NCBI RefSeq assembly: GCF_026151205.1
Contig: NC_087072.1
Location: 19,498,103-19,562,102 of the forward strand
Source of the DNA: Bolinopsis microptera
Taxonomy: Eukaryota; Ctenophora; Tentaculata; Lobata; Bolinopsidae
Reading direction: 5' to 3'
Length of the DNA: 64,000 nt
Every line of letters starts with the position of its first letter. The first letter of the stretch is position 1. A program made the translations under genes and the position numbers. Shown one piece after another: positions 11,183 through 39,735 of the stretch. The notes beneath the pieces were generated by a model, which did no database searches, was not told the origin of the DNA, and worked only from the letters and a program-made list of their open reading frames with translations.

Positions 11183-27945
<16,763 letters not shown>

Positions 27946-28151: not shown

Positions 28152-29447
28152 TTGTCAAAGAGGGATTCTGTTAAATGCGAGGACTTCTTGGAGTTGCATT
28201 CAGATTTTGTTCAGAACAAGAGTGTTCAACATGACACGTTGATGTCTGAACTTGAAACACTTATGGCCAAGCAAACTGCTGTGAAAACTGCCACAAAGTG
28301 GCTCACTTCCACTGGAGAAGAATATGTATGGTCTTCCTCAAATGGACACACCACGACTAAGGAGCCAATCGATATTTTAAATTATCCTGGGATATCAGAG
28401 CTTATGCATGATATCAACTCCAAGTTTGGCTGCAAGCTAAACTCATGCCTAGCAAGCATGTACAAGTCTGGTTCTTGTGCAACTAGGTACCACAACGACG
28501 ACGAGGTGGCTCTTGACCAGTCGCAAGGTATTTATGTAGTTTCATTTGGAGCTGAGAGGACCCTCGACATAATTCCAGAAAATGGGGATAAGCGATGTAA
28601 CAGTAAATGCTATATCACCCCAAAGGACTGTAGTTTGTATATTATGAAACCGGGGTGTCAGGAATATTGTCTTCACAAGGTTCGTGCAGAGAGCTCAGTT
28701 AAGGGGACTCGGTATAGCTTATCTTTTCGCTGTCAGATACCGAAGACAGATACAAATGTAGTCAGAGAGCAGATTGTCCTCCCTACAATTCCTATGCCGC
28801 CCACCACCACCTCAACACCAACCCTTTACTACCGAAATGCTCCAAGAAAACCGAAGAGCAGGAAAACCACTGTCCTGTTTGGTACGTCAATGACAAAATT
28901 CGTACGGACAAATAAGTTGGGATTCCGGGGAAGGAAAGTAATCAATGTGTCTCAAAGTGGTGCAAAAATTAGAGACATCACTGAAAATATTCATCATTTT
29001 CATAAAACTCATGCAGCTGCAGAAGCTGACGATATTGAAAAGATTATATTGAGTGTTGGTACAAATGACATTAAACATTCTAAGTATGGGGTTCAGTTCC
29101 TTAGGAAGTATCTTACTGAATTAATTGACACCACTAAGCAGTTATTTCCCGCTGCAATTATAATTATCCAATGTTGTCTTCCTATTAAGTGTTTATATTC
29201 CTACATAGCAAAGAATGTTCTAGATTTTAACAATCTACTTAAAGACTTATGCCTAAAGAATAATTGCGTGTTCCTAGACTGTTTCTCAGACTTTTTAACC
29301 CGAGACTTTAGATCATGTAATGAACTTCTATACCATGATTGGCTTCATCTCAACATGAGAGGAGTAGGTTTACTGTCCACTTGGCTTAAGTTTGTTGTAA
29401 ACGAACACAGTTTTGACAGGGTTGTAAATAATCTTCTGAGAATTTAA
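28152..29447 (+). CDS. LINE-A ORF1: AlkB-like 2OG-Fe(II) dioxygenase fused to SGNH hydrolase
   Basis: The open frame has 431 codons. Its first codon here is TTG and the first ATG is at 28242 (codon 31), so the true start is uncertain. Residues about 75-197 match the AlkB pattern. Y-x-x-G is followed by H114-N-D116-D-E (iron ligands), a strand with SFGAER, H175 in CLHKV (third iron ligand) and R187-Y-S-L-S-F-R193, the RxNxTFR-type 2-oxoglutarate motif. A Pro/Thr linker (210-235) follows. Residues about 238-420 look like an SGNH esterase: FGTS with nucleophile S246, SVGTNDI (block III, 301-307) and HDWLHLN with D396 and H399. Esterase domains are known in CR1-type ORF1 proteins. I do not know an AlkB domain as a standard ORF1 part; AlkB enzymes reverse alkylation damage or methylation in nucleic acids and occur in some plant RNA viruses. 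The domain could protect or demethylate the element RNA. Confidence 0.88.
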   Translation: MSKRDSVKCEDFLELHSDFVQNKSVQHDTLMSELETLMAKQTAVKTATKWLTSTGEEYVWSSSNGHTTTKEPIDILNYPGISELMHDINSKFGCKLNSCLASMYKSGSCATRYHNDDEVALDQSQGIYVVSFGAERTLDIIPENGDKRCNSKCYITPKDCSLYIMKPGCQEYCLHKVRAESSVKGTRYSLSFRCQIPKTDTNVVREQIVLPTIPMPPTTTSTPTLYYRNAPRKPKSRKTTVLFGTSMTKFVRTNKLGFRGRKVINVSQSGAKIRDITENIHHFHKTHAAAEADDIEKIILSVGTNDIKHSKYGVQFLRKYLTELIDTTKQLFPAAIIIIQCCLPIKCLYSYIAKNVLDFNNLLKDLCLKNNCVFLDCFSDFLTRDFRSCNELLYHDWLHLNMRGVGLLSTWLKFVVNEHSFDRVVNNLLRI

Positions 29448-29544: not shown

Positions 29545-32500
29545 ATGCCTCCCATTTCAGGTATATTCGGTCACTGTCCATTTTCCAACATGTTAGACAA
29601 TGAATCGTTTAGACTTAGAATAGGTCTTTTTGCATGCAAAAGGCCTCGTACACAGTCAAGAAATGCACTTTTACATATCAACACGTGTATACCTAACAAA
29701 ATTTACACATTTAAGTCTCCATACACCCCACACATCAACTACAATTATCATAATCATATGTTTCTCTTCTATTCTCTCATCATGACTTACTTTCTCCCAA
29801 TTCTTCTCTCCACGGTTAGGTCCATGAACACCGTATTCCCCCTAGATTCTGATATTCATTCCTCTCTACTCCTTGACAGCCCACGTTATCTTATACCATT
29901 TCTTGCTTGCTCCCACATCAAACTTTTCTTTGTAATTATCTCCTCATGGTTTATAAGAAATGTTCTTCTCCCTGGTAAGATTAATAGAGTCAAGTATTCC
30001 AGCCGCCTCAGGCGTCTAGTCTCTTTATTCATTCTTTGGGTTTTCTCTCTTAACTTTCTTTTGATAACTCTTGTTAATCCTTCTATGCTTAATCCAGGTC
30101 CCAACTCCCTATCTGTACTATACCAAAATGTCCAAGGTCTTATTCCTTTCAGTAACATAAGCTCCTCCCATCCCCTTCTTGATAGTAATAAGATTTCCGA
30201 ACTTCAATCCTTTGCTAACATAGAGCAGCCTGACATAATTGCCCTAAATGAGACTTGGCTCAAAAAGTCTATTTCTAGCAACGAAATCTTTCCTTCTTCT
30301 CAATATGAAATCTTCCGCAATGACCGCACGAGAAAGACTCATCCTCAAGATCCTAATAACCCTAAAAAGTTTAGGGAAAATGGAGGTGGTGTTCTTTTGG
30401 CTGTTCGGTCTGATCTCGATGCCACTACAACCCGACTACCAGTTAGCCTAGGTGCAGAAATGCTTGCCGTTAAAATTGCTTTTCCTAACAAAGAGAGTAA
30501 TGTAATCTGTACTTGTTATAGAGTAGGAACTCTTGGGTTACCTAATCATGATGTCATAGTTAGTTATATTCGCAAGCTAGTTTCCAAAAAGAATCCCCCT
30601 AAAATCTATGTTATTGGTGATTTTAATCTCCCCCATACAGACTGGCTATCTTCATCCAGTACCGTACCTATTGAGCAATCCTTCATAGATTCTTTCAGTA
30701 ATCTTTCTCTCTCCCAGTTGATCACATCACCCACCCATAAAAGTGGTAATACATTAGACATTCTTCTCAGTAATTATGATAACACAATCGATAACTTGAA
30801 TGTCTGTGATCCTCATTCCGTGTGCAAATCTGATCATTTTCCTGTCACTTTTTCAATTAAAAGCTCCTTTTCCCGCAAGAAAACTCCTAAACGTAAAATC
30901 TATAATTATAAGAAAGCAAACTGGGACATGATTAATCGTGAATTATGCTCGATTAATTGGCAAGTCCTAGAATGCCTAGATCCTGATTCGTCTTGGAAGT
31001 TAGTTAAAGACTGCATTATGAATTTAGTTGATATACATATTCCTAAAGTAACTATTAAATCAGAGTTTCAACCCCCGTGGTTCGATAGTGAACTTTTTTC
31101 TTCATGCCGTAAAAAAGATAGACTCAGAGCTAAATTTAAAATTTCTGGTTCTATTTCTGATGAGTTAAAGTTTGTTACTAGCCGTAAAGATTTTAAGAGG
31201 CTTTCATCAGCCAAAATAAGAGACAATCTTTTCAATAGTGATGATCCAGCGCTTATAACTAAGAAGTTTTGGTCACATGTTAAGTATAAATCTAACTCCT
31301 GCCGTATTCCTAATTGTGTTAGTTATTCTGGACAGCTTCGGTTCAAACCCAAAGCTCAAGCTGAACTTTTCAATTCTTTCTTTTATAACCAGTTTTCGGA
31401 TCCTTCACTTTATGACACTGACATCTCCTATGTCAATGATGTTGATTTTGATATTGACTTTGATCATCGGGATGTTCGTAAGCTTCTTTCAAATATTAAT
31501 TCAAATAAAGCCCAGGGACCAGATGGCATACACGGTAAAATTCTCAAAAATTGTTCCGTAGGTTTAGCTTACCCTCTAACATGCATTTTTCGTGGATCTT
31601 ACAACAGCGGCTACATTCCACAAGAATGGAAACTTGCAAATGTTGTCCCAATATTTAAGAAAGGTAAGAAAAGTGAGGTTGAAAACTATAGACCAATATC
31701 CCTTACTTGTTTAGTCATGAAAGTTTTTGAGCGCATTGTTAAACGTAAACTGCTTTCTTTGACAAGTACCCTTCTTGATCCCAGGCAGCATGGTTTTCTA
31801 GAGCACAAGTCATGCACAACCAATATGGTTGACTTTTGTGATAGCCTGGCATTGTCTCTTAACGAAAACATTATCAATCATGTTGTGTATTTTGATTTTG
31901 CTAAGGCATTTGATTCTGTAAATCATGATATCCTTCTTCATAAGCTAAAGACCTTATATAACATTGATGGTACACTTCTCAAATTTCTTACCAATTACCT
32001 TCAAGGCCGTTACCAAAGAGTGGTTATTGGTAATGAGATGTCATCTACCCTCTCAGTTAATTCTGGTGTCCCCCAGGGCTCTATTCTTGGTCCCTTACTT
32101 TTTGTATTGTTTATCAATGATATTCCTCTTGGCCTTTCGGATAATACTGATATTGTTTTATATGCCGATGATACAAAAATCTGGCGTAAAATACATTCAT
32201 CTTCTGATAATACTAATTTACAAATGGATATAGACTATCTCTCTGACTGGGCACTAAGAAACAAAATGCGATTCCATCCAGCAAAATGTAAAGTGCTTAT
32301 TGTTTCAGGAAAACCATCTTTATCTCCTCCGTTCGCATATGATCTTGATGGCTCTCCTCTTGTGTATGTAGAGTTAGAAAAAGATCTTGGAGTCGATGTT
32401 ACTCCTAAGCTAAGTTGGAATAGTCAGTGCGACAGAATTTATACTAAGGCCTGCCAACAACTTGGTATGGTCAGAAGAGATGGCCATATTGTCATTGATC

Positions 32501-33060
32501 AGAAACGTCGCCGGGCGCTTTACCTCTCCCTGGTTCGTAGCCAATTCGAAAATTGTTCCATAATCTGGCGCCCTTGTAATAAATCACTTAGTGATAAATT
32601 AGAAAGTCTCCAAAAGAGAGCTATTAAATGGATTCTGTCTGAAGAGGGCCGCAGTTATCCACCTGAGCAATATGTCAAAAAGTGCAAGCTTGTCGACATT
32701 CTCCCTTTGTCTCAAAAGTTTGACTTGAATGATCTTATTTTTTTCCACAAAGTTCTTAACAATTTAATTCCTGTATCGCTGCCTCACTATCTCTCTTTAT
32801 ATCAGGGCACTTCTCGACTAAGACGTTGCCACCTCGACAGTCTGTCTATTGTGTCATCAATTTTACCTAAGTTAAGTCAGAATTCACACACCACATGTAC
32901 CTCAAATAGCCCACTGGCAAAATCATTTTTCTACAGAACCCATATACTGTGGAATGGACTCCCTTTACAGGTAAGACAGATTGTGTCTACTAGTCTTTTC
33001 AAAGCTGAGGTCACTAAGCATCTATGGAAATGTTTATTGGATAGTGAAACAACAGTCTAG
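29545..33060 (+). CDS. LINE-A ORF2: APE endonuclease and reverse transcriptase (CR1-like)
   Basis: Open frame of 1171 codons, uninterrupted. Residues 1-180 are unusual: three hydrophobic stretches, then MLNPGPN at 181-187, a worn 2A-like NPGP end. The endonuclease follows with YQNVQGL (about 193), ALNETWL, GDFNLP and SDHFPVTF (429-436, intact Asp-His). The reverse transcriptase shows NKAQGPDGI, NYRPISL, FDFAKAFDSV, SGVPQGSILGPLLF and LYADDTKIW (catalytic YADD at 873-876). A CR1-type C-terminal region follows, ending ...LLDSETTV. The enzyme nicks DNA and copies its RNA by target-primed reverse transcription. It lies 97 bases after ORF1, so reinitiation or a separate start is needed. All key motifs are present, so it may be active. 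Confidence 0.95.
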   Translation: MPPISGIFGHCPFSNMLDNESFRLRIGLFACKRPRTQSRNALLHINTCIPNKIYTFKSPYTPHINYNYHNHMFLFYSLIMTYFLPILLSTVRSMNTVFPLDSDIHSSLLLDSPRYLIPFLACSHIKLFFVIISSWFIRNVLLPGKINRVKYSSRLRRLVSLFILWVFSLNFLLITLVNPSMLNPGPNSLSVLYQNVQGLIPFSNISSSHPLLDSNKISELQSFANIEQPDIIALNETWLKKSISSNEIFPSSQYEIFRNDRTRKTHPQDPNNPKKFRENGGGVLLAVRSDLDATTTRLPVSLGAEMLAVKIAFPNKESNVICTCYRVGTLGLPNHDVIVSYIRKLVSKKNPPKIYVIGDFNLPHTDWLSSSSTVPIEQSFIDSFSNLSLSQLITSPTHKSGNTLDILLSNYDNTIDNLNVCDPHSVCKSDHFPVTFSIKSSFSRKKTPKRKIYNYKKANWDMINRELCSINWQVLECLDPDSSWKLVKDCIMNLVDIHIPKVTIKSEFQPPWFDSELFSSCRKKDRLRAKFKISGSISDELKFVTSRKDFKRLSSAKIRDNLFNSDDPALITKKFWSHVKYKSNSCRIPNCVSYSGQLRFKPKAQAELFNSFFYNQFSDPSLYDTDISYVNDVDFDIDFDHRDVRKLLSNINSNKAQGPDGIHGKILKNCSVGLAYPLTCIFRGSYNSGYIPQEWKLANVVPIFKKGKKSEVENYRPISLTCLVMKVFERIVKRKLLSLTSTLLDPRQHGFLEHKSCTTNMVDFCDSLALSLNENIINHVVYFDFAKAFDSVNHDILLHKLKTLYNIDGTLLKFLTNYLQGRYQRVVIGNEMSSTLSVNSGVPQGSILGPLLFVLFINDIPLGLSDNTDIVLYADDTKIWRKIHSSSDNTNLQMDIDYLSDWALRNKMRFHPAKCKVLIVSGKPSLSPPFAYDLDGSPLVYVELEKDLGVDVTPKLSWNSQCDRIYTKACQQLGMVRRDGHIVIDQKRRRALYLSLVRSQFENCSIIWRPCNKSLSDKLESLQKRAIKWILSEEGRSYPPEQYVKKCKLVDILPLSQKFDLNDLIFFHKVLNNLIPVSLPHYLSLYQGTSRLRRCHLDSLSIVSSILPKLSQNSHTTCTSNSPLAKSFFYRTHILWNGLPLQVRQIVSTSLFKAEVTKHLWKCLLDSETTV

Positions 33061-33478
33061 CCTAGTCTCTTTGCTCCCCATATTATTATTATTTTTGTTT
33101 TATTAATTTTTTTATCTACCTTCCCATACTTTCAACATCATATCACACTTCACCCGCACACCTTCTCACACATTAATGACCATTTCAGACCTGTATCTAA
33201 TGTATCTGGAATTTGACGTATTGAAATACCAATTTTGACTCTATATCCACAGTTACTCACCATGGATTTGTTTGTTATTAAATAGTTTTTCATAAATTTT
33301 TGGATTTAGATTAATTCGATGTAATGGGTCCAAGTTACTGCGGACATAGTTCACTATGTGTTTACCGTGTTTGGGTGCCCATCATATTTTACAGATGGGG
33401 GCGAGATTTTGAACGATTCTATTTTATATTCATCTATTGCTGTACTCTGTAAAATTTGAAAAGTATTTAATAAAAAAA

Positions 33479-35437
33479 TATAACGATAGCAGCATCTGCA
33501 GAAAGATATGAAAATTGTCTTCCAAAGAAGTTGGTATAATCAACATAGAGGTTAAATTAAACAGGAATCAGAAGGGTTGCAAGGTTATTACAAGATTTTT
33601 TCTGCATTTTTGCCACCTCACATTATCTAGTCAGTCCCAGCTGTTACTGGGGAAGACAAGATCAGATATGGATGTGAAAATAAACATCTTTAATTTATGT
33701 AAGATGTGGAGAATATGTTAATTGCTTACAAATTTTCAAAATGTTTTAAAACTAAAATAAAAAATAAGGTATGATTTCAATTCGACCAAGTTTAAAACAT
33801 ATATGATATAATAACATCAGATTAAGAATTTTTTTAGTTCATTTGTAATAACCAATCTTTGATTAAACTATCTAATATTATGTTTTTGGCTGAATATAAT
33901 TAAGGATATGTAAGCATATTGAATATCCAAGACCAAATCGGAGAACACTATACAGTACACGTTAGTCTTCCTGATTTTACGTGACATGTTTTATTAATGT
34001 TGCTTCCTCTGTCAAGGTTACATTACAGATGTAGATTGTAGGGCAAAGGTAACCATGTTATCTGAGATAGGTTCACTAACCAGAGGACCTGCTAGGTCTA
34101 TTTCCGAGGAAACACTACATATTGTCTGCACAGTTATGTGAATCTTTCCTTACTTGGACATCATGTTTTGGGATGTGTCCTACTGCACTGTTAATGCAAA
34201 TTTAATTAAAAGGCTATTGATGTCAAATAACTTGTTTGTTTGGAGCAATTGGGTTGTAACAATACTGTTTTCTAATTTCAAACAAAGCAACATTATATTT
34301 GTTTTAACCTATATTTTTATTGGTTTAGTTAGATTGTATTACCATGAAGCCTCCTGAGGGAGTGAGCAGGAGACCCAAGTTTTCACTCCTGATGATAACG
34401 TTTGAGAATTATTGGCTTCTTATCACATTTTCTCATTGGGGCAACCCCAGCTCAGCCAGGATATGAGTACTGAATTCTCTTTAATAGCATAATTTATGTA
34501 ATTTGATTTATATCTCATTATTCAGAATGATGAGGCTCATGTATGTAAGGACAACAAAATACTTTACTGTCGCATTTAATTGTACACCAGATATTGCCTC
34601 AATCAAAAGCTAACAAGTGATGTTGTTGGTGTCATTGTTATTGTTATGCGTTTTGATTAGATTTGATAAACCCCATTACCAATTATATAGCAACTCAACT
34701 TATGGTGTGAATAACAGCACCTGAATGAAAGTATCAAACACCATGACTAGGTCGAAGAGACCTGGTGACCATCTCATGCTCAAGGTACCAAAGAATAAAA
34801 AGTCCTAAGTTGATGACAGACGTTTCTCATATATATATATATAACTCTAAAACTCTGGTCACAAGAGCAACTGCCTAAACGTGCAGAAGTGAAAACAAAT
34901 AAATAAAATACTAGCAATCCTTTAAATTCGCAATAAATAAGTTCGTTCAATGTCATTATATAATTCTAAAACCACATATATGTGACCAGTAAATAATTTA
35001 ATTGGTCTATAGACTACTGTATAAAATTCTCAATATAAACTTTTAAACAATAATAAATTAATTAAAAAACACACAACAACCTTTGGTGTGTAAGAATGAT
35101 TAAACAGCCTCATTTTGACACAAAATATCTTCATAATATTATAGTATATGCTATAATATTAGAACTGTTAAGTTGAGTTCAGGTAACAGAATTTAACTGT
35201 AATAGAACCTCTGCTGTGTTATCCACTGTTGAGATGTAGCCATATCTTCGTCCGGTCTAACATTGACCCCGGCTCATGAAATATATGCTTCGTCCGGTCT
35301 AACATTGAACCCGGCTCACTAATCATAGGGATGGTGTAGTTATGGTAGTTGGAATATAATCAACTGTTTAAAGTTTTATCTCTATTCGAAGGAATTCTTC
35401 TGCATCCTTTGTTATTTCCAGTGCTAGATCAAAGAAC
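33479..35437. other. Intergenic stretch and 3' end of LINE-B
   Basis: AT-rich with no credible gene. A short (AT)n tract lies at 34832-34843. At 35248-35317 a 41-bp unit containing CTTCGTCCGGTCTAACATTG is repeated twice; it lies downstream of the LINE-B coding end on the minus strand and probably belongs to its 3' UTR. Confidence 0.55.
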
Positions 35438-37611: not shown

Positions 37612-39735
37612 GACTGGGCGAAAGTCAGGAAAGTTAAGTGTAAACAAGGCGAAACTGACACAAAAGGGGGCACATGCCTGTGTTCTATCTGCTGTAATAA
37701 AAGAAACCGTTATGATGACTACAAAGAATATAGAAAGGCTCTAAAAAAGGTTCGTAAAAAAGCTGTATCTGAATATTATTCTGACAAGTTTCTTGAAACT
37801 CAGGGAAATTCCAAGAAAACCTGGGAACTGATAAATAAAATTCGTGGCAAACAGAAACGTGATATCAGACCTATATTTACCATAGACAATGAAAAGATAA
37901 CTGATCGCAGAGTTATAGCTAATGAATTCAATAAGTATTTTGTATCCCTAGCATCTAACCTTAATGCAGCCTACACAGAACTAGGAGAGATACAAATAAA
38001 TCAGCTTCCAAGTTTCTGTGACTTCTTACCTAAATCGAATACAGCTAATATATATCTACATGACTGCTCACCTGAGGAGGTGGCTAAGATCATATCGGAA
38101 CTTAAGAATGGCAAGGCTAGCGACATACCAGTACATATAGTAAAGGCAGTATCAGGCAAAATTAGCCCACTACTATCGGTATTGTACAACGAATGTATGC
38201 AACAGGGATTTTTTCCAGACGACCTAAAAGTAGGTAAAATAAGTCCAATATATAAGAAAGAAAATGCTGAGCTTCTTGAAAATTACAGGCCTATCTCAAC
38301 CTTAGCGATATTCGGTAAAATACTTGAAAAAATCATATTCTCCAGGCTTTACAGTTTCTTTCAGTCGCAAGGATTATTATATGAAAATCAATATGGCTTT
38401 AGAAAAAATCACTCGACAAGCCATGCACTCAACTTCTCTGTCGACTACATTGAAAAATCTTTAAGAGATAAAAATCACGTACTAGGCATCTTCATTGATT
38501 TAAGTAAAGCTTTTGACACAATCTGTCATGATAAACTGCTTAAAAAACTGAATGATTATGGAATTCGAGGGACTGCAAATAAATTGATAGCCAGTTACCT
38601 TTCTAATAGACAGCAATATGTTTCAGTACTTGGAGAAGAATCCGAAAAACTGTCTGTAATATTTGGTGTTCCTCAGGGGTCAGTATTAGGTCCCTTGCTT
38701 TTCATTATCTACATCAATGAAATATATAGAGTATCAGACCTAGGTAAGTTTATACTTTTTGCCGATGACACCAACATATTTGTTGTAGATAAATGTATAA
38801 AAACACTTTACTGCAAAGCTAATAAAATTCTTAAACTTGTTCATCAGTATATGAAGAGTAACTTGCTGCATATCAACATAAAGAAATGTTGTTATATCCA
38901 CTTTAAGCCGAACTGTAGAAATGAACCAGATTCAAACACCAATGAATTAGAACTGACACTAAATAATATAGTAATTAAAAAGGTGGAGGAAACTAAGTTT
39001 CTTGGAGTCATTATTGACCAAAAACTGAACTGGGATGCTCACTTAAGAGCGTTAAACCGTAAATTGAAATGTGAGATAGGTAGACTATGTGGAATTAGAC
39101 GCTGTGTACCTAAAAAACTATATAAGGACCTGTACCACACCCTTTTTGAATCACACCTATGTTATGGAATATCTGTTTGGGGAGGTGTATCAAATAATAA
39201 ACTAGAAGCCATATTTAAAACACAAAAGAAATGCATAAGAATTCTCTTTGGTGATAATGATGCATACTTCAATAAGTTCAAAACATGTGCCAGAGTAAGG
39301 CCTATCACTAGGGATAAGACCGGTAAAGTTATCAAGCAGATGTTAGGCAAAGATTTCTTTGAACTAGAACACAGTAAACCAATCTGTAACGAGTATAACT
39401 TCCTGACTGTCCACAATCTTCATAAGTTGCACTGTTTACTGGAAATGTTTAAAATTAATAAGTTCCAATCACCAGTCTCAATGTTCTCTTTATTCAACAG
39501 GTCACCAAGACGAGACAACTACTTCATCCCACCCACTCCATCCTCACTATTCATCTATCAATCAACTAGTATTTGGAATCACTGCCGTAAGTCAACAAGT
39601 GAAATAGACTTCTCCACTCCCATCAGTATATTCAAGAATAATCTTAAGAAAGCTTTGTTAGAACTACAATCTAAATATGACCGACAACTTTGGTGCAGTT
39701 ACAACTTTGATGCAAATGAATTATCATTGAAATAG
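37612..39735 (+). pseudogene. LINE-C reverse transcriptase, frameshifted from its endonuclease
   Basis: Long open frame (codons open from 37549; true homology begins about YDDWAKVRK). RT motifs in order: ELKNGKASDIPVHI, KISPIYKK, NYRPISTLAIF, QYGFRKNHSTSHAL, IFIDLSKAFDTI, FGVPQGSVLGPLLFIIYIN and ILFADDTNIF (FADD catalytic). A C-terminal region with SPRRDNYF follows. Uninterrupted to its stop. The close minus-strand paralogue at 51.7-53.4 kb shares these motifs almost word for word. Confidence 0.92.

Follow-up and report, generated by a model that had tools for sequence, protein, structure and literature searches.

The window, which is the whole stretch of 64,000 nucleotides of Bolinopsis microptera DNA analysed here, contains on its forward strand a LINE-type retrotransposon with two open reading frames. 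By sequence matches, ORF1 joins an AlkB-type dioxygenase domain to an SGNH esterase, and ORF2 encodes an endonuclease and a reverse transcriptase (RT). The features are listed below.

28158..29447, forward strand: ORF1, 5'-truncated; the first residue with homology is the K of KRDSVKCEDF, placed by tblastn of the relatives P0002 and P0003
28287..28742, forward strand: AlkB-type 2OG/Fe(II) dioxygenase domain, residues ~46-197, identified by phmmer match to ALKBH3, family profile and column counts; key residues H114, D116 and H175 (iron), R187 and R193 (R-x5-R) and E118 (acidic active-site position)
28743..28862, forward strand: variable linker rich in Pro, Ser and Thr, residues 198-237, ending in a basic RKPKSRK before the esterase
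28863..29426, forward strand: SGNH/GDSL esterase domain, residues 238-425, with S246 (GTS), G270, N305 (GTND) and D396-W-L-H399
29545..33060, forward strand: ORF2, with hydrophobic N-terminal segments, NPSMLNPGP, APE endonuclease and reverse transcriptase, free of stops and frameshifts
33061..33560, forward strand: probable 3' UTR region after the ORF2 stop; its right boundary is the extent searched

On the forward strand, the ORF1 reading frame is uninterrupted between 28140 and its stop (29447). The original prediction started ORF1 at 28152, but the TTG at this position is merely the first start codon called: the closest two relatives, P0002 (460 aa, 96% identical) and P0003 (458 aa, 86%), start with Met and carry 31 extra N-terminal residues. 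In tblastn, P0002 (95.6%) and P0003 (86.2%) align with the window from 28158, which is residue 32 of each. Thus, the window copy is 5'-truncated and otherwise open through ORF1 and ORF2. LINE insertions are commonly truncated at the 5' end. No match to the missing N-terminus was seen by eye in the upstream frames, and tblastn gave no further piece of it in the window.

ORF2 follows ORF1 on the same strand after a gap of 97 bp, and each is a single open frame, confirming the claim that ORF1 lies just before an APE-RT ORF2. The ORF2 product matches PF14529 (Exo_endo_phos_2), PF03372 (Exo_endo_phos) and PF00078 (RVT_1) in Pfam, and its strongest RT matches among solved structures are R2 and L1. 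A homologous protein, P0117, is 95% identical to it over residues 185-1171 and 92% over its own length. By its position and its esterase match, ORF1 is the LINE ORF1 in the window, and the element is an APE-type LINE whose ORF1 is of the esterase type, putatively CR1/L2/RTEX-like. No second copy of the element was found within the window, and scanning the window for tRNAs and Rfam families gave no matches. As a candidate target-site duplication, the best flank repeat was a 9-bp string of A and T only; 30 of 400 random stretches gave a repeat as good, and we rejected it.

The beginning of ORF2 (29545-30110, residues ~70-190) encodes roughly three segments of strong hydrophobicity, then NPSMLNPGP and the endonuclease. 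Among the matches listed, 92 ORF2 relatives are longer than 1100 aa; at least two hydrophobic segments are present in 87 of them, and NPGP occurs within 260 residues in 90. Given these segments, ORF2p may associate with membranes, in keeping with an ORF1 esterase that would bind lipids. We considered a 2A peptide at the NPGP and rejected it: of 110 relatives whose NPGP lies close to the start, none has the canonical D[VI]ExNPGP.

Elsewhere in the window, other, more distant RT fragments lie at 38050-39267 on the forward strand and at 36742-35438, 41433-41074 and 53482-52111 on the reverse strand. They are ~24-33% identical to ORF2 relatives and belong to other retroelements. Upstream of ORF1, the forward strand at ~25270-26595 reads like an intron-containing gene for a rhodopsin-type GPCR, judged from translation and sequence.

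To characterize ORF1, we searched its protein against solved structures and domain models. All residues named in the original prediction are at their assigned positions (H114-N-D116, H175, RYSLSFR at 187-193, S246 in GTS, N305 in GTND, and D396 and H399 in DWLH), and matches to ALKBH3 and to the LINE esterase structure 4c1b by phmmer and by profile bear out the proposed fusion of the two domains in one frame. In a single-sequence phmmer search of PDB sequences, ALKBH3 matched residues 78-197 at 1.6e-7, covering the whole HxD...H...RxxxxxR set. The profile built from a 106-row family alignment reached ALKBH3 at 1.8e-18 and ALKBH2 at 7.4e-18. An AlkB-only profile made from ten sequences matched 16 ALKBH3/2 sequences at 2.6e-16 to 2.3e-13, followed by bacterial AlkB (0.053), the putative 2OG-Fe oxygenase 5xeg (0.32), an unrelated ubiquitin ligase (0.74) and ALKBH1 (1.1); no solved structure of ALKBH5 or FTO appeared among its matches at E<=10.

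The general domain models were less sensitive to the window protein. Pfam gave PF03171 at E 0.0019 with 18.9 bits, below the cutoff of 23, and no PF13532 match; NCBIfam gave no match. However, PF13532 was found at E<=0.001 in 76 of the 99 family members scanned. Among five family proteins tested with the NCBIfam AlkB equivalog model, one (P0028) matched, at 4.6e-8 with a score far under the cutoff. The assignment to AlkB thus holds through ALKBH3/2 and through the relatives, whereas Pfam on the window protein alone stayed sub-threshold. A chance origin of the resemblance is very unlikely, and judged by these matches the domain is AlkB-type and, among solved structures, ALKBH3/ALKBH2-like.

The pocket for 2OG shows a departure from these enzymes. 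The Asn that contacts 2OG, Asn159 in ALKBH2 (described in parts of PMC12295762) and Asn193 in ALKBH5 (likewise in PMC3985658), is Ser in the window; Ser or Thr occupies this column in 83 of 106 rows and Asn in 4. In the R-x-N-x-T-x-R motif, the Asn is replaced by Ser or Cys in 104 of 106 rows. We treated the 2OG-contact Asn as a secondary residue that does not define membership of the AlkB family. Because of these changes, 2OG binding may differ, and AlkB activity should not be assumed. The acidic residue E118, kept in 98 of 106 rows, aligns with ALKBH2 Glu175, which contacted the amino group of m1A and m3C in simulations; changing this Glu to Ala abolished activity, according to portions of PMC12295762. 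Counterparts named in passages of PMC3985658 are ALKBH3 Glu195, AlkB Asp135, FTO Glu234 and ALKBH5 Glu153. Since FTO and ALKBH5 have such counterparts, E118 alone cannot separate an m1A/m3C substrate from m6A. We also considered a nucleotide-recognition lid, with Y58-x-W60 resembling ALKBH2 Y122-x-F124 by eye, but set it aside, as the HMM alignment leaves these segments unpaired.

The linker between the two domains has a mean conservation of 0.20, the lowest among the four segments compared. The 12 residues preceding the esterase carry a net charge of at least +3 in 70 of 106 rows, with 36 rows having no basic stretch, and in 70 of 106 their charge reaches or exceeds the 95th percentile for the same protein. 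The esterase itself matched PF13472 at 1.3e-12 in the window and in 99 of 99 family members scanned. With the Ser, Gly, Asn and His blocks kept, this agrees with the earlier call of an SGNH hydrolase. The esterase of ZfL2-1 ORF1p (4c1b) matched at 4.6e-5 with the single sequence and at 1.7e-12 with the family profile, and two further SGNH hydrolases scored somewhat better. The Pfam model OSK, the SGNH-like domain of Oskar, was matched by 10 of 99 family members (best 9.3e-8), an observation that may bear on the origin of the OSK domain.

To assess conservation, we searched proteins with the window ORF1 and found 115 homologous clusters (E<=1e-3), picked by shared words and E-value, a procedure biased toward conserved proteins. 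The 106-row alignment comprises the window and 105 clusters, with ten short clusters left out; the Pfam scan covered 99 members, leaving out seven long members of this alignment. H114, D116, H175, S191 and R193 are kept in 106 of 106 rows and R187 in 105, the sole change among the iron and arginine residues being R187 to L in P0085. The original prediction had named loss of H114, D116 or H175 in other intact copies as evidence against it; among the aligned relatives, no row has lost any of the three. The iron ligands make up 3 of the 11 invariant columns among 431, and together with the arginines they are kept down to ~27-29% identity with the window. Where the ten left-out clusters reach these regions, HxD is kept in 3 of 3 and H175, R187 and R193 in 8 of 8. 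In the esterase, N305 is kept in all 106 rows, S246 in 105 (A in P0049, the sole changed nucleophile), G270 in 104 (lost in P0112 and P0114) and H399 in 103 (two gaps; lost in P0112). D396 is kept in 90 rows; two rows have gaps there and 14 of the other 104 have another residue.

The two domains appear to have diverged together. Pairwise distances in the AlkB and esterase halves correlate (Spearman 0.81, 5565 pairs), and 0 of 500 permutations gave a value as high. In a 42-row tree, which takes in 23 of the 106 proteins (24 domains, P0096 being represented twice) and was built without ALKBH1, 5, 8 and FTO, the AlkB domains of the family form one group with support 95/94. P0263, judged from its sequence to be a partial member of the family, also falls inside this group. 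ALKBH2/3, similar stand-alone AlkB proteins and P0266 are on the opposite side. In six of 106 rows (P0092 and P0094-P0098), the complete AlkB motif set occurs twice, in tandem, before the esterase, which would be consistent with ongoing selection on the template repair proposed below.

Outside the family group, P0266 (317 aa) has an AlkB domain and then an SGNH-like stretch containing GDS, as seen by eye; it is perhaps a separate or early-branching fusion. Ten of P0269-P0280 (all except P0271 and P0275) are stand-alone AlkB proteins in a group of their own with support 97/99, and most of them have RYSLTFR and NSCLINK motifs that resemble those in the LINE domain.

We also examined whether the relatives sit next to an ORF2. 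Comparing 94 of the 115 ORF1 clusters with the best 120 of 2907 ORF2 matches (8000 candidates scored), we found five coinciding longest-contig sizes (5531, 5975, 5962, 6070 and 3717 bases), against a mean of 1.5 under shifts of 1-60; 2 of 120 shifts reached five. For the pair P0014/P0135, the source set is also identical. Scans of viral and prokaryote contig collections did not find the relatives' locus. The same order of AlkB and esterase, which the original prediction proposed to look for in other LINEs, recurs in the aligned relatives; their linkage to ORF2 is suggestive only.

Based on these features, we tentatively propose, at just short of an even chance, that an ALKBH2/3-like AlkB dioxygenase in the LINE ORF1p strips m1A and m3C from the element's RNA or cDNA and thereby aids its own reverse transcription. 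ORF1p would bind the element RNA through the basic stretch. The esterase would take it to membranes or to sites of RNP assembly, as has been proposed for ZfL2-1. The AlkB domain, N-terminal of the esterase, would take Watson-Crick-face methyls (m1A, m3C) off the RNA of the element or, as an alternative substrate, off the single-stranded cDNA made in target-primed reverse transcription. The demethylated template could then be read through by the element's own RT. We hold slightly more tentatively the wider claim that a dealkylation-repair enzyme for RNA/cDNA is built into the RNP protein of a widespread LINE lineage, with the template repaired before or during reverse transcription.

The suggested preference for m1A and m3C follows mainly from the kinship with ALKBH3/2 and not with ALKBH5 or FTO. 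In the sections of a review that we drew on, a table assigns m1A and m3C to ALKBH2/3 and m6A to AlkB, ALKBH5 and FTO; ALKBH3 prefers single-stranded substrates and can use RNA, and ALKBH2/3 also show weak 5mC oxidation in vitro (PMC8508711). Passages of PMC12140624 state that m1A and m3C hinder reverse transcriptases. In the OTTR method described there, the R2 non-LTR RT is impeded by m1A, and AlkB treatment increased most 3' tRNA halves, with a modest effect on intact tRNAs. Because these lesions hinder RTs and ALKBH3 acts on single strands and RNA, we prefer the reading in which ORF1p would keep its template readable. The kinship would likewise favour the RNA-repair half of the original prediction over its other half, evasion of silencing based on m6A or 5mC.

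This latter possibility, an eraser of m6A in RNA or of 6mA/5mC in DNA that evades epitranscriptomic or chromatin silencing, is unlikely in our estimate, although several reports lend it some plausibility. According to parts of the respective texts, the AlkB domain of orchid Ty3/Gypsy elements binds and demethylates RNA in vitro, with epitranscriptomic control proposed (PMC9289625), loss of mouse ALKBH1 leads to more 6mA and repressive marks on young L1s (PMC4982230), m6A on L1 RNA is said to bring silencing (PMC8535693), and ALKBH2/3 have the weak in vitro 5mC activity mentioned above (PMC8508711). Against this stand the AlkB-only profile matches, which reach ALKBH1 at just 1.1 and include no structure of ALKBH5 or FTO at E<=10, and a report, seen in excerpts of PMC7873242, that ALKBH5 suppresses human L1 retrotransposition; because of this report, m6A erasure would not obviously help the element. 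The domain might instead serve ORF1p as a nucleic-acid-binding or structural module that catalyses no demethylation, a reading we rate a shade below the eraser. The replaced Asn residues in the 2OG pocket and in R-x-N point this way, but the iron ligands and R193 in every row, and R187 in all rows except one, persist down to the lowest identities in the family. We know of no use for this set of iron ligands and arginines except Fe/2OG chemistry.

The substrate could also differ from the one we propose. LINE ORF1 proteins bind RNA and form RNPs, a nature that favours the element's own RNA over host nucleic acid or protein, or over DNMT-derived m3C in the element's DNA, and we regard these other targets as somewhat less probable again than a domain devoid of catalysis. 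They gain some weight from the activity of certain ALKBH proteins on tRNA or proteins (sections of PMC8508711) and from nematodes, where 5mC and ALKB2 are lost together, ALKB2 being the enzyme that clears m3C, a toxic by-product of 5mC methylation (parts of PMC9071541). A very different explanation, that ORF1 is a host AlkB-esterase gene adjoining a LINE ORF2 by chance, could draw on the fact that a single DNA copy was read and that the linkage in relatives is a coincidence of longest-contig sizes. We consider it highly improbable: the esterase half matches a solved LINE ORF1 esterase, the two frames lie 97 bp apart on one strand and are each open, homology begins abruptly within the ORF in the fashion of a 5'-truncated LINE, and in 20 of 115 clusters the longest contig measures 5.5-6.5 kb, roughly the length of a LINE of this kind.

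An active domain would make the element a non-LTR retrotransposon with a nucleic-acid demethylase of its own. One could then test whether methyl lesions such as m1A and m3C in its RNA or cDNA restrict the movement of a retrotransposon, and whether enzymes that repair or erase such lesions evolve in mobile elements. The finding also adds an ORF1 type at a time when little is understood of what ORF1 does. A demethylase and a non-LTR RT would here be paired naturally, as they have been paired artificially for tRNA sequencing with the R2 RT and AlkB (described in sections of PMC12140624).

The closest known relative in architecture is ZfL2-1 ORF1p (PDB 4c1b, PMC3905857), an esterase-type (type IV) ORF1 of the CR1/L2/RTEX elements, which shares the SGNH esterase upstream of an APE-RT ORF2. 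Its arginine-rich RNA-contacting motif, as presented in portions of that paper, is comparable to the basic pre-esterase stretch found here in 70 of 106 rows. In contrast to the ZfL2-1 type, the window ORF1 has an AlkB domain added N-terminal to the esterase. Esterase-type ORF1s have been described before (passages of PMC3905857, PMC4120745 and PMC5408684), and the relevant part of an ORF1 survey places them in vertebrate L2/CR1 subgroups only (PMC4120745). AlkB, oxygenase or demethyl- wording is absent from the main texts of these three papers and of a gastropod non-LTR survey (PMC11203168). Compared with human ALKBH3 and ALKBH2, the LINE domain has the same H-x-D-x-E...H...R-x5-R arrangement; it differs in being fused to an esterase in a retrotransposon, in the 2OG-pocket Asn, mostly Ser/Thr here, and in having RYSLSFR (window) in place of R-x-NLTFR.

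AlkB-family domains in retroelements have a precedent in orchid Ty3/Gypsy LTR retrotransposons, as excerpts of PMC9289625 report. Those are LTR elements with a recent acquisition, as its title has it, whereas here the domain is in a LINE ORF1, in a diverse family and fused to an SGNH domain; 12 of the 17 passages there with LINE, non-LTR and other such terms were covered, and they make no mention of an AlkB-bearing LINE. Plant RNA viruses (Alphaflexi-, Betaflexi- and Closteroviridae) carry AlkB domains with proposed genomic RNA upkeep and in vitro RNA demethylation, again from excerpts of PMC9289625; these are viral proteins, which we liken to the LINE domain by description. The capture of viral helicase domains by TRAS ORF2 and Jockey ORF1, reported in sections of PMC5563155, is a precedent for the uptake of enzymes by LINEs, but it involves another enzyme from another source. 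Fungal DNA transposons with TET/JBP (PMC12730594) also carry a 2OG/Fe(II) dioxygenase, of another family and on DNA transposons. In the parts of PMC12140624, PMC4982230, PMC9406493, PMC8535693 and PMC9071541 that we considered, AlkB appears only as host enzymes or reagents. Among the titles and abstract beginnings listed from the open literature, a set outside Repbase, preprints and subscription papers, we found no description of AlkB in a LINE ORF1. Taken together, esterase ORF1s and AlkB domains in LTR retroelements are known, and what is apparently new, priority permitting, is an esterase-type LINE ORF1 with a predicted ALKBH2/3-like dioxygenase.
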